From Methanothrix harundinacea (GTDB taxonomy: Archaea > Halobacteriota > Methanosarcinia > Methanotrichales > Methanotrichaceae), in NCBI GenBank assembly GCA_001509375.1, contig LGFT01000033.1, positions 1-40,648 on the forward strand: 40,648 nucleotides of DNA. Reading direction: 5' to 3'. Below, one piece after another: positions 14,324 to 27,144 of the stretch. The position numbers were made by a program, and so were the translations under genes. Numbering within the stretch: the stretch's first letter is position 1; each line of letters opens with the position of its first letter. Below the pieces are notes generated by a model that saw only the letters and a list, made by a program, of their open reading frames with translations, did no database searches and was not told where the DNA came from.

Positions 14324-14346
14324 ACCCCTTCATTTCCACTGGAGAT
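14324..14346 (-). repeat. Distal origin recognition box (ORB) after cbiE
   Basis: On the minus strand this reads TCCAGTGGAAATGAAGGGGT, the canonical archaeal ORB with its 3' G-string. It occupies the short gap between cbiE and the minus-strand membrane-protein gene, about 3 kb left of orc1. It has the same orientation as the other left-side boxes. Confidence 0.7.
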
Positions 14347-14371: not shown

Positions 14372-15250
14372 CTATTCCGGATTGCAGACTTTACAAGGAG
14401 AATATCCGGCTTCCTCCGCCTCCGCGACATTGGAGAAGAATATCCTATTTTCGTCCTTGATCTTCTCAGCATAGCGACAATCGGGTCGATGATACTTGTT
14501 GGAGGTGGTGCTGCCCACATAAAAGCTCCCAACCATCTCATCATCCTCATAATCGGTCTCTACCTCCAGCTCAGCCTCCATCTGCGCGCCGGAGCTGTCT
14601 CGATATCGTTCAGTCGATTTGTAGTAGGATGAAATCGAAGCCACTTTTGCAGAGCCAGGGGGTGAGAGAGAACTGTAAGACGCCTTTTCAGATCCTGCCT
14701 CTACGCCACGGGGCGAGCTCATCTCCTCCCAGACTACGACTCTGGAATCATCCTCCACAACCTGGCAATCATGTCGTTCGGATACAAAAAAATCCTCTGG
14801 CTCCTCGACCTCAAGAAGAGAGGAATAGCCGCGCTCCGGGCTGAGGCGACAGCTTTCGCGTATATCGAAGCTGCGCCTATCTCCAGGCCCCATATCGATC
14901 ATCATGTGCCTGGTGGACTCGATGAGAAGGTCCCCGTCCCAGAGGGTGGCGTTGAGGATCAGGTAGGGCAGAGCCGAACCATCTTCAAGGGTCAGATTTC
15001 CCCAGGTCCGAAACATGCTCGGACTGACTGAGGAATCGAATTCTACTATCGGAGAAGCCAGGGATGAGACTGAGGGGCCGATGACCGAGATCGAAGAATC
15101 AGGATCCTCTCGGACTATGGAGAGAGCGCCATCGAGTTCTGGGGGAATCCCAAACTCGTATCCAGAAAAGAAGAGCGCTGATGCAAGAAGCGCTAGAAAA
15201 AGGAAGGAGAATAGGATCAATCTCTTGAAGGATGGAAGCCTCAGCAACAA
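14372..15250 (-). CDS. Membrane-anchored extracytoplasmic protein with Ada-like zinc domain
   Basis: 292 residues with one N-terminal membrane segment (about 10-30) after a basic start, then about 215 residues of polar, Ser/Glu-rich sequence with N-glycosylation-type NLT and NAT sites. The C-terminus has FYVGSTTSNKYHRPDCRYA, then FFSNVAEAEEAGYSPCKVC. The last 50 residues match the Ada metal-binding-like module often found at the ends of secreted nucleases and lipoproteins, with Cys at about 255, 286 and 289 and a His. No catalytic domain is recognised in the middle. The start is TTG 15250 (TTG 15253 also possible) with no clear SD, and the upstream 15277-15299 ORB may overlap its promoter. 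Confidence 0.72.
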   Translation of the reverse strand: MLLRLPSFKRLILFSFLFLALLASALFFSGYEFGIPPELDGALSIVREDPDSSISVIGPSVSSLASPIVEFDSSVSPSMFRTWGNLTLEDGSALPYLILNATLWDGDLLIESTRHMMIDMGPGDRRSFDIRESCRLSPERGYSSLLEVEEPEDFFVSERHDCQVVEDDSRVVVWEEMSSPRGVEAGSEKASYSSLSPPGSAKVASISSYYKSTERYRDSSGAQMEAELEVETDYEDDEMVGSFYVGSTTSNKYHRPDCRYAEKIKDENRIFFSNVAEAEEAGYSPCKVCNPE

Positions 15251-15276: not shown

Positions 15277-15299
15277 ACCCCTTTATTTCCACTGGAGAT
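15277..15299 (-). repeat. Distal origin recognition box (ORB) upstream of the Ada-domain gene
   Basis: Minus-strand sequence TCCAGTGGAAATAAAGGGGT preceded by ATC, differing from the box at 14324 at one core base. It lies in the 152-base gap between the 14372-15250 and 15403-15987 genes, about 2.1 kb from orc1. Confidence 0.7.
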
Positions 15300-15402: not shown

Positions 15403-15987
15403 TCAATCCTGCAACCTCTCCACAACCTCGAGAGCCTCCTTGACGTACTCGAGCTGGATCTTCAGCCGTCCCAGATCCTGCTCATCTCGCATCTTCTCGG
15501 AGATTTCCCTGATCTTCTGGAGGATAGCCCTCATTAGCTCTTCTTTCGCCAGATCCACCTGATCTCTCTGTCCCATCTTTCCTGATACAGCTTCGCGATG
15601 GACAGCTTCACCGTATTCCCGGTTATATGTTGATGGTGTAGCTTTAAAACTTTTTTCTACTTCAAACTCTCTCGCTGAACCTCTCTCTTTCTCAGCCTCT
15701 GGAATTAAACGCGACTCGCCCAAGGCTCTTGTCTCAGATTCCGACATGCTCAAAGGCCTCGTCTCAGATTCCGATATGCTCGGGGGCCTCGCCTCAGATT
15801 CGGCTGCGAAATTTTTCTCTTGCGGGAGAACTTGTGCTGCGCCCACCTCTTCAAAAGAACAAACCGGGCAGACCACCTCCCCTTTGTAACGAAAGAGAGG
15901 GGCACCACAATCGTGGTGATTGGCTAGCATCGTCCCCCCCATCTCCAAGAGCCTTGATATCCTTTTAATGGCCTCTTCTTCTTCCAT
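15403..15987 (-). CDS. Autoantigen p27 (SSSCA1)-type zinc-ribbon protein
   Basis: 194 residues. The N-terminal helix AIKRISRLLEMGGTMLANHH leads into a zinc ribbon with Cys27 (HHDCGAPLF) and CPVC at 40-43, the diagnostic block of the archaeal and eukaryotic p27 autoantigen family (UPF0148 in archaea). The fourth ligand could be a His of HHDC. A Ser/Glu-rich low-complexity centre (about 60-105) contains a 10-residue near-repeat, and a coiled coil covers about 145-194. Start ATG 15987 follows TGGTGAT. Function in archaea is unknown; the eukaryotic protein is linked to chromosome segregation, so a location beside the origin is suggestive but not proof. Confidence 0.8.
   Translation of the reverse strand: MEEEEAIKRISRLLEMGGTMLANHHDCGAPLFRYKGEVVCPVCSFEEVGAAQVLPQEKNFAAESEARPPSISESETRPLSMSESETRALGESRLIPEAEKERGSAREFEVEKSFKATPSTYNREYGEAVHREAVSGKMGQRDQVDLAKEELMRAILQKIREISEKMRDEQDLGRLKIQLEYVKEALEVVERLQD
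15731..15803. repeat. 30-base tandem repeat inside the p27 gene
   Basis: Two full units beginning GTCTCAGATTCCGA at 15731 and 15761 and a partial third at 15791 encode the repeated SESETRP-type segment. The period is a multiple of three, so copy number can vary without breaking the frame. Confidence 0.8.
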
Positions 15988-16175
15988 CGAGATCACCAAG
16001 TATGATTAAAGCACCAACCTAGCATAAACATGCACCCCGTCGCAAGATGCATCCCTTTGCAGCCGATGTAAAACGTCTTGAAACCACCATATGTTTAAAT
16101 ATGACTACCATGTCATAATCTGGTAGACGGACTTTATCCTTAACCTTTTTGCCGTCTTGAAAGTGTGGTGATTCC

Positions 16176-16436
16176 ATGGCAGCTGAAAATGTGATTAAGC
16201 AGTGCGTCGAAGTTTTAGAGCACATAATAAGCGACGATACCGTTCCCAGAAACATAAGGCGCTCTGCAGAGAGCGTAAAGTCAACCCTTCTTAACGAGGA
16301 AGACTCCAAGGCGATCAGAGCTGCATCCGCCATATCAATCCTGGACGAGATAAGCAACGATCCAAACATACCCCTTCACACCAGAACCCTGATCTGGAAC
16401 GTCGCCAGTCAGCTCGAGACGGTCCCCGTCGAATGA
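16176..16436 (+). CDS. UPF0147 family protein
   Basis: An 86-residue, all-helical archaeal protein. The family pattern is clear: [19 protein letters not shown] near residues 13-31, [22 protein letters not shown] in the middle, and [20 protein letters not shown] at the C-terminus. It has no signal peptide or membrane segment. ATG 16176 follows GGTGA. A GTTTAAATA block about 75 bases upstream (16093-16101) may be its TATA element. It reads toward the origin region and is separated from orc1 by about 1 kb of non-coding DNA. Biochemical role unknown in all archaea as far as I know. Confidence 0.9.
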
Positions 16437-16713
16437 CCTGTCAAGGGACGATCGGCCAAAAAGAATCGGATAATGGGCGATATTGGCTCGAATCGAGTTA
16501 TGTTCTAAGTTGTATTCTAATTCCAACCCATTTTCTGATAAATAACGAATCAGGTATAAAATCTGAGATGAAGTCTCTTAATCCAACATGAGGGTGGTCT
16601 AAGCCTTTCTATATCGAAACCCCATGAATACCCTTTTAGGAGTGCATTATAAAAACGGTTTGATTTTAAGTATTGCCCCCCACATCCATTCGGTTCATTC
16701 ATATAGAGCTTCA

Positions 16714-16750
16714 ACGCTTAGAGATCTAGAAATTTCACGCTTAGAGATCT
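16714..16750. repeat. 14-bp direct repeat in the origin
   Basis: ACGCTTAGAGATCT occurs at 16714-16727 and again at 16737-16750, 23 bases start to start, just left of the ORB cluster. It does not resemble an ORB and has no assigned role. Confidence 0.7.
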
Positions 16751-16783
16751 GGCGCATTCATCTCGGAAGCCCAGCTGGCTGTA

Positions 16784-16806
16784 ACCCCTTTATTTCCACT
16801 CGAAAA
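16784..16806 (-). repeat. ORB box 1 of the origin
   Basis: Forward sequence ACCCCTTTATTTCCACTCGA; on the minus strand TCGAGTGGAAATAAAGGGGT. One mismatch in the palindromic core relative to TCCAGTGGA. Confidence 0.75.
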
Positions 16807-16814
16807 ACCCCCCA

Positions 16815-16837
16815 ACCCCATCATTTCCACTAGAACT
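16815..16837 (-). repeat. ORB box 2 of the origin
   Basis: Forward sequence ACCCCATCATTTCCACTAGA, same orientation as box 1 and 31 bases away start to start, about three helical turns, so two Orc1 molecules could bind on the same face. Confidence 0.75.
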
Positions 16838-16962
16838 ATGGAGCCGGAACCCCTCCGTGACATCCCGGCGCGGAAACAGATTTATGGCGGGAGGAATCTA
16901 CACAAGAAATAAAAAAATTATCAATATTTTAACTATTAAAACAAAACTCTCCCGATTGCTCA

Positions 16963-16985
16963 ACCCTAATATTTCTACTGGAACA
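16963..16985 (-). repeat. ORB box 3 of the origin (degenerate)
   Basis: Forward sequence ACCCTAATATTTCTACTGGA keeps the ACTGGA half and a shortened C-string, with two deviations from the consensus. Confidence 0.6.
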
Positions 16986-16989
16986 CAAA

Positions 16990-17012
16990 ACCCCATCATT
17001 TCCACTGGAAAC
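16990..17012 (-). repeat. ORB box 4 of the origin
   Basis: Forward sequence ACCCCATCATTTCCACTGGA followed by AAC, the best match of the left cluster, immediately left of the AT-rich core and 27 bases from box 3. Confidence 0.8.
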
Positions 17013-17310
17013 TTGCAATGTGGATATGCTCTGATCTCTATACGGAAAGCTGAATCTTAAATGTGGCCCTCCAATATGAATGAAGAGCATAAATCGAGAG
17101 AAACATTTTATAGCATTTATTTAATAAATAACTGATCGTAGCTGGATCTTAAATTAATCTTTTCCACCATTGCTGGTTTTTTAAAGATATGTATATTTAT
17201 GATTGCCCAATGTAAATACAATCAGAATCTTTAAGTATGATTAGTGAGTTAACGACTAATGGCTATATCTATATTGATTTACATTACACAACTCAAAGGT
17301 ATATCTCTTA

Positions 17311-17331
17311 TTCCAGTAGAAATAAAGGGGT
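17311..17331 (+). repeat. ORB box 5 of the origin, opposite orientation
   Basis: TTCCAGTAGAAATAAAGGGG followed by T and a further GGGGGG run. It points away from the AT-rich core, opposite to boxes 1-4, giving the inverted arrangement typical of archaeal origins. A degenerate copy, GCAGTAGAAATGG, follows at 17341. Confidence 0.75.
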
Positions 17332-17424
17332 AGGGGGGTTGCAGTAGAAATGGCGGTTCCATACCGCAACTCTTAATAACAGATAGAATGTATTTTGTTT
17401 TTTGTCTGGGGGATTTGGTCTTTC

Positions 17425-18645
17425 ATGTCGGGCGGATTATTTGCTGACCTCTTAAAAAAGGGGGAAATATTTGCGTGCAGAGATGTGCTTCGTTCCAGCT
17501 ATACACCTTCAGAGCTTCCCCATAGGGAAGATCAGATCAATGGCATGGCCTCTATTTTGGTCCCAGCTCTCAGGGGCGAGACTCCTTCTAATGTCCTGAT
17601 ATATGGGAAGACTGGGACGGGGAAGACCGCCGTGGCCAAATACGTCGGTTCGGAGCTGGAGGCTGCGGGGGGGGATGGCAGCTCAAAATGCTCTTTTATC
17701 TACATCAACTGCGAGGTCATCGATACGCAGTATAGGGTTTTGGCCCATCTCGCTCGCTGTTTTGGGAGAGAAGTCCCCATGACCGGCTGGCCCACAGATC
17801 AGGTATACGAGGAGGTGAGAAAGTCCCTGGACGAGGACCACCGCATGGTGGTCATGGTTCTCGACGAGGTCGACAAGTTGACGAGGAAGGGGGACGATAT
17901 CCTCTACAACCTGACGAGGATCAACTCGGACCTGGATCAGGCCGGAGTCAGCTTGATAGGGATCTCCAACGACCTGAAGTTCACGGACTTCCTGGACCCG
18001 AGGGTCAAAAGCTCCCTTGGGGAGGACGAGATAATCTTTCCGCCCTACAACGCTGAGCAGATCAGCGATATACTCCAGCAGAGAGCTTCGATGGCCTTTA
18101 AGCCCAGTGTCCTGGCTGAAGACGTGATTCCCCTCTGCTCGGCTCTCGCAGCCCAGGAGCACGGCGACGCCCGGAGGGCTCTGGACCTCCTGAGGGTCTC
18201 GGGGGAGCTGGCAGAGCGGGTGGGTTCCGATCGGGTGACGGAGGATCACGTTCGATCCGCCCGGGCGAAGATAGAACGCGACCGGGTGAGAGAGGTGGTG
18301 ATGACCCTTCCGACCCAGTCCAAGCTCGTCCTCTACAGCGTCCTCCTCCTGGAGGAGCAAGGGATAAAGAACGTCACCACTGGGGCTGTTTACGGTATGT
18401 ACAAGCAGCTCTGCCCTCTGGTGGACCTCGATTACCTGACCCACCGGCGGATCGCCGATCTGATCGCGGAGCTCGACATGCTGGGGATCATTCACACCGT
18501 GGTGGTGAGCAAGGGCAGGTATGGAAGGACGAAAGAGATCTCACTTTCCATATCCCTCGCAAAGCTCAAAGCTATGATCTTGGATGACTACAGGCTCAAG
18601 GACCTCATCGGCGGCACCTCTTCGGTCCAGAGCAGATGGGGCTGA
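17425..18645 (+). CDS. orc1: Origin-binding initiator Orc1/Cdc6
   Basis: AAA+ replication initiator that binds ORB boxes and helps load the MCM helicase. From ATG 17425 the protein has 406 residues: LPHREDQINGMASILVPAL, Walker A GKTGTGKT at 61-68, Walker B MVLDEVDKL with DE at about 147-148, sensor-1 GISNDLKF, arginine-finger region DPRVKSSL, sensor-2 GDARRALDLLR near 250, and a C-terminal winged helix (about 290-400) with VYGMYKQLC and YGRTKEIS. A TTG at 17395 would add ten unconserved residues. GGGGG about 11 bases upstream is the best SD candidate. The gene reads away from the ORB cluster that it is expected to recognise. Confidence 0.95.
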   Translation: MSGGLFADLLKKGEIFACRDVLRSSYTPSELPHREDQINGMASILVPALRGETPSNVLIYGKTGTGKTAVAKYVGSELEAAGGDGSSKCSFIYINCEVIDTQYRVLAHLARCFGREVPMTGWPTDQVYEEVRKSLDEDHRMVVMVLDEVDKLTRKGDDILYNLTRINSDLDQAGVSLIGISNDLKFTDFLDPRVKSSLGEDEIIFPPYNAEQISDILQQRASMAFKPSVLAEDVIPLCSALAAQEHGDARRALDLLRVSGELAERVGSDRVTEDHVRSARAKIERDRVREVVMTLPTQSKLVLYSVLLLEEQGIKNVTTGAVYGMYKQLCPLVDLDYLTHRRIADLIAELDMLGIIHTVVVSKGRYGRTKEISLSISLAKLKAMILDDYRLKDLIGGTSSVQSRWG

Positions 18646-26690: not shown

Positions 26691-27144
26691 ATAAGTGTTT
26701 TTTGTTTACCCTGCACCTGTCAAGACCTGTCAAGAAGCCAATTATAAATAGGTATATATGTATATTTTTATTGATTTTAAAACTAAGCCGATTTTTTTCC
26801 TTGGATTGGTCGGCCCTTCTCAAACTAACATTTTACGACTTTTTGCTGATACTATCTGGAGCCGCGAAAAAAAAGCGATATCTACTAAGGCTATATCATT
26901 GATCCTAGCTGATATTAATTACAAATAACTCAAAAATTATGTAAAAATATAATTATATTTTCGACCACCTTTCAAATCTCACCAAATATTACAATATTTA
27001 CACGAATAAAACTGTATATAACTCTCTTAATTGCAGTATTCGAGACTCACAGAGAATATTATATGAATTATTACTACAGATTGTCTATATGGTGAATTGT
27101 TTATTTTAGTCTAGTTTACAGGACAAAACGTCTACAATTATCAT

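Follow-up and report, generated by a model that had tools for sequence, protein, structure and literature searches.

Judged from its sequence, the region upstream of an orc1/cdc6 gene of Methanothrix harundinacea very probably serves this Methanothrix-like methanogen as the sole replication origin of its chromosome, and it is laid out in the usual archaeal design. Motif, polarity, inversion, AT-rich core, initiator and exclusivity, by which an oriC1-type origin is recognized in sequence, are all present. Taken as a whole, the region is best explained, with high confidence, as an oriC1-type chromosomal origin of the M. harundinacea group that uses the neighbouring Orc1, and we infer that Orc1 binds the locus and that replication fires there. 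The origin itself is of a known archaeal type; the noteworthy part is a less usual addition, namely single conserved Orc1 boxes (ORBs) at a distance of 2–3 kb, of which one lies where a neighbouring gene begins.

The window analysed (40,648 bp) is the entire contig C69 of a 2.38-Mb draft genome. Its gene order runs from cbiG–cbiE (cobalamin) through an ORF on the minus strand (14372–15250), a zinc-ribbon gene (15403–15999, minus strand, with an autoantigen p27 domain) and UPF0147 (16176–16436) to the box region and orc1. The ORF carries a C-terminal Ada-type zinc domain and its product is secreted or a lipoprotein. At its left edge (1–847), the window cuts into a malic-enzyme gene, the N-terminal part of which is seemingly located at the end of contig C1, so that C1 is probably the neighbouring contig. 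Rfam gave no RNA at the core or at the loci checked, except tRNA and one sR41. The initiator gene (17425–18645, plus strand, ATG at 17425) is of the Orc1-1 type. A match to the ORC1-type family NF001625 (638.8 bits) together with the Pfam Cdc6 lid (AAA+) and winged-helix domains confirms that orc1/cdc6 lies directly downstream of the boxes, as had been proposed; the closest solved structures are 2qby_A and 2v1u, and the nearest relatives, at 93–97% identity, are found in M. harundinacea and Methanocrinis genomes.

The boxes were scored as 19-mers against the consensus TYCASTRGAAAYNAWGGGG. Four of them point left (minus strand): L1 (TCGAGTGGAAATAAAGGGG, 16785–16803), whose position is kept in the genus, and L2 (TCTAGTGGAAATGATGGGG, 16816–16834) with 1 mismatch each, L3 (TCCAGTAGAAATATTAGGG, 16964–16982) with 2 mismatches and a degenerate G-string, ATTAGGG, and L4 (TCCAGTGGAAATGATGGGG, 16991–17009) with none. 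On the right, pointing in the opposite direction (plus strand), are the perfect R1 (TCCAGTAGAAATAAAGGGG, 17312–17330) and R2 (TTGCAGTAGAAAT, 17340–17358), in which 11 of 19 columns are invariant. R2 is degenerate and weak in the window (TGCAGTAGAAATGGCGG), and in several relatives its G-string is intact or nearly so (TGCAGTAGAAACGAAGGGG). The identity and polarity of the boxes hold up against the published Methanomicrobia ORB, TCCA[GC]T[GT]GAAA[CT][AG]A[AT]GGGGT, from Ori-Finder 2 (PMC4164010), from which the window motif differs only in having R at the GT position. Successive left boxes are 31, 148 and 27 bases apart, which bears out the spacings of 31 and 27 bases first reported (L1–L2 and L3–L4). 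The original prediction of four left boxes and one right box also stands as regards their presence, but the third left box, which reads ACCCTAATATTTCTACT, does not fit the consensus quoted for it. To call the origin complete was an overstatement, as the weak right box at 17340 had been overlooked and so had two perfect satellite boxes at 14325–14343 and 15278–15296, which fall outside the stretch first described.

The G-string of L3 departs from the consensus in all genus members. One left ORB is consistently broken in this way, reading ATATYRGGG in the window (L3) and CATACGG in the Methanothrix loci L038–L060, and still keeps its TCCA..GGAA or TCCA..AGAA half; retention of this half beside a broken G-string suggests a selected weak site.

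L4 and R1 face each other across an AT-rich core of 299 bp (17013–17311; 30.1% GC versus 54.6% for the window), which is likely the duplex-unwinding region. The core is thus as AT-rich as had been claimed, at 30% GC, but longer than the estimate of about 250 bases. Three further elements are conserved around the boxes. An A/T block with the motif WATCAATATWTT (16908–16945), between the outer and inner left ORBs, is kept in all genus relatives and was not found as such outside the genus; it is a candidate unwinding or protein-binding element. Within the core, a genus-specific element that is not an ORB (ATCAGAATCTTTAAGTA, 17219–17238) is invariant at 15 of its 20 columns across 8 genomes, compared with a background of 13%, and is a candidate promoter-like or protein site. 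Finally, the probable orc1 promoter (AACTCTTAATAACAGATAGAATGTATTT, 17366–17396, plus strand) abuts R2, has 26 of 31 columns invariant and is located at −56/−57 in all genus members. AT-richness as such is not unique to the core, since a stretch at 26902 has 15% GC (per 60 bases); the intergenic segment 26500–27250 is AT-richer than the origin core and precedes an archaeal-type ATP synthase operon.

Considering that the window has 21 matches to the short pattern versus 7.5 ± 2.9 in shuffles, and 8 matches to the G-string pattern versus 0.98 expected, that the only four 0-mismatch ORBs of the 2.38-Mb draft genome (14325, 15278, 16991 and 17312) are found within 3 kb of one another on this contig, and that a reversed control pattern gave 0 sites in the whole genome, the boxes are not a product of chance. 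Confinement of the perfect ORBs to this locus also rejects the idea that boxes of this type are scattered genome-wide at equal density. Outside this contig, a single site lies within 1 mismatch (C1:48539), and it resembles in sequence a site of the closed relative G004 located inside the malic enzyme gene. A recurrent 1-mismatch site, TCCACCGGAAATCAAGGGG, 17–22 kb away in G003 and G004, was discarded as an ORB because in G004 it falls within the coding sequence of the malic enzyme; this coding context was established for the G004 copy, with which those of other genomes agree letter for letter.

Across the genus, as seen in seven relatives that have orc1 context, four boxes on the left and one or two on the right are constant in position and orientation: relative to orc1, two left boxes lie at about −660 to −570, followed by one at −516 to −461 and one at −488 to −434, and the right boxes lie at about −114 and −85. 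In every member of the genus the inner left boxes are separated by 27–28 bases, and the outer left boxes by 26–31, with the exception of L028 (75); such spacing may allow Orc1 to load cooperatively, as originally suggested. In an alignment of 8 sequences, invariant columns amount to 42–74% in the boxes, 75% in the core element and 84% in the orc1 promoter compared with 13% elsewhere, the inner boxes, core element and promoter together spanning 58–84%; flanks drift while the box layout recurs. Inverted ORBs upstream of orc1 are also present in Methanothrix, Methanoperedens and Methanosarcinaceae, in differing numbers. In Methanothrix proper there is usually a single left box, for the most part with the broken G-string CATACGG, and the two right boxes lie at about −121 and −88; one or two left boxes and usually two or three right ones are found in Methanoperedens and Methanosarcinaceae. 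At the sequence level, the relatives within the genus share this architecture, which recurs in modified form across Methanosarcinales.

No ORBs were found on contig C14, which carries the second Orc1 paralogue (Cdc6-2), so that the chromosome is expected to have one ORB origin, with the proviso that the genome is 97.5% complete. Together with the recurrence of the layout, this points to an ordinary oriC1-type origin that is probably the only one of the chromosome. On the inverted ORBs, Orc1 from the adjacent gene would contact TCCASTGGAAA through its winged helix and the G-string through its AAA+ domain. By analogy with Sulfolobus and haloarchaea, the left-pointing L1–L4 and right-pointing R1 and R2 would flank the core so that MCM is loaded there, and unwinding would begin in the AT-rich core. 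Since the conserved orc1 promoter directly adjoins R1 and R2, Orc1 probably represses its own gene as well.

The same adjacency could mean that the boxes near orc1 serve mainly as a cluster of operators for autoregulation of this gene, with replication starting elsewhere or independently of an origin. Cdc6 ChIP in Pyrococcus abyssi found sites besides oriC, and regulation of genes by Orc1/Cdc6 has been proposed (PMC5333045), both in keeping with such a role; nucleotide skew lends no support to an origin at the locus. Skew was sampled in the closed G004 (chromosome of 2,559,043 bp, orc1 at 234.6 kb; 40 samples of 20 kb), where no inversion at orc1 is seen in GC skew (p = 0.84) or AT skew (p = 0.45), and none of significance was found anywhere sampled. 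As it is without signal throughout G004, skew neither supports nor refutes the origin and provides no independent positional support. Thermococcus kodakarensis is reported to replicate without Cdc6 or its predicted origin (PMC5663688), so that an ORB locus need not be essential. However, an operator needs no order-conserved inverted array of >550 bp around an AT-rich core, and the genome holds no competing ORB cluster; we therefore consider a chiefly regulatory role very improbable and retain the assignment as an origin.

Two perfect ORBs, both on the minus strand, lie outside the array. The one at 14325–14343 occupies the convergent gap between cbiE and ORF 14372–15250 and is conserved in the genus only; the other, at 15278–15296, is upstream of that ORF. 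An equivalent of the latter, always on the same strand, is present in each of the 29 Methanotrichaceae loci in which this position is covered (zinc-ribbon gene in range); these are related genomes and not independent events, although several genera are spanned. Among them GGGGT is invariant, TCCA and GGAA are invariant or nearly so, and the flanks drift. The idea that this box tracks the zinc-ribbon gene and not the ORF was discarded, as the ORF start lies right behind the box in nearly all genomes; relatives of the ORF were in several genomes aligned by tblastn at the C-terminus only. No meaning can be read into an apparent relocation of a satellite in G007 (442 kb), as runs of N in the assembly adjoin both places.

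The 15278 box may serve in initiator titration, as an operator, or as a ribosome-binding site that doubles as an ORB. In 22 of the 29 loci, a possible start codon of the ORF follows GGGGT after 7–9 nt, so that GGGGT could double as a Shine-Dalgarno sequence. It is thus quite possible, though short of an even chance, that the box serves the ORF as Orc1 operator, ribosome-binding site or both and has no part in replication. Consistent with this, the G034 box has decayed to 3 mismatches and its GGGGG stays, and other genera have an unlinked ORB preceding the promoter of a NosD-like gene. On the other hand, the spacing is unsuited to a Shine-Dalgarno sequence in the window (27 nt), L031 (20) and L044 (52), although the box there shows little or no decay; in L062 the ORF has been lost and the box persists with 1 mismatch; and the palindromic half TCCA.TGGAA is conserved too. 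Nor does the 14325 satellite, in its convergent gap, have a start nearby. Perfect, selected single boxes 2–3 kb from the origin could instead titrate Orc1, as oriC2D does for Cdc6E in Haloarcula hispanica, where oriC2 is repressed, likely through titration, by 11 ORBs on the downstream side of cdc6E (PMC3936714). This reading is tentative, as two extra sites against six at the origin would give a small buffering capacity, and a position and orientation fixed relative to genes are not required for titration; a dense cluster of the oriC2D kind was not found apart from the origin, only the single satellites 14325 and 15278. In our working model of the origin, both satellites would probably be additional binding sites that keep free Orc1 buffered, and the 15278 box may also control the ORF, both being weaker suggestions than the assignment of the origin itself.

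Single boxes also occur elsewhere in the family, at fixed places unlinked to orc1. Ten genomes of other genera (L158 2320, L159, L160, L162–L166, L170 and L171) have one such perfect ORB upstream of a NosD-like beta-helix gene and its conserved promoter; this gene is divergent from one for a DUF2116 zinc-ribbon protein. In six genomes (L152 2737 and L153–L157), a single perfect ORB lies between a zinc alcohol dehydrogenase gene and a Lhr-type helicase gene, and in G034 this box is ∼727 kb from the origin. The genome of the window has no equivalent of the NosD or dehydrogenase/helicase boxes within 1 mismatch.

The Sulfolobus oriC1, Pyrococcus oriC and haloarchaeal oriC1 share with the present locus inverted ORBs with a polar G-string, an AT-rich region and a cognate orc1/cdc6 gene. 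The window differs from them in its four left and two right boxes, arranged in tandem pairs, and adds a second A/T block within the left array as well as the satellites 2–3 kb off. With the predicted Methanomicrobia origins (DoriC/Ori-Finder 2, PMC4164010; PMC3984812) it has in common the ORB motif with GGGGT, a single origin and two Orc1 paralogues, to which it adds the evidence of multi-genome conservation and the satellites; single origins were predicted for Methanosarcina mazei and M. acetivorans (PMC3984812). Extra ORBs apart from the origin proper are likewise a feature of H. hispanica oriC2/oriC2D, but oriC2D is a downstream cluster of 11 boxes in 722 bp behind cdc6E (PMC3936714), whereas the window has single upstream boxes, two in this genus. 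Sulfolobus origins contain a ucm element inside the DUE that is bound by UBP (PMC12141716); the short non-ORB motif in our core (17219–17238) may be likened to it by analogy only. Binding of Orc1/Cdc6 outside oriC has been reported in P. abyssi (PMC5333045).

According to a 2014 review, the origin of M. thermautotrophicus (Methanothermobacter) was the only one shown experimentally among methanogens (PMC3984812), and our literature search found no dedicated description of a Methanotrichaceae origin. The present locus provides an exact, conservation-backed predicted origin for a dominant group of acetate-using methanogens, for which a closed relative exists. Its satellites are a concrete case of Orc1 sites under selection outside an origin and bear on gene regulation by the initiator or on its titration. 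It is conceivable, although we would not yet call it probable, that Methanotrichaceae keep isolated ORBs outside the origin: one near it, at the start of a secreted-protein gene, where GGGGT would be used by Orc1 and by the ribosome alike, and in certain genera another at a fixed place unlinked to orc1, so that the initiator controls non-replication genes or is buffered. If so, the isolated ORBs of Methanotrichaceae would link replication initiation to gene expression.
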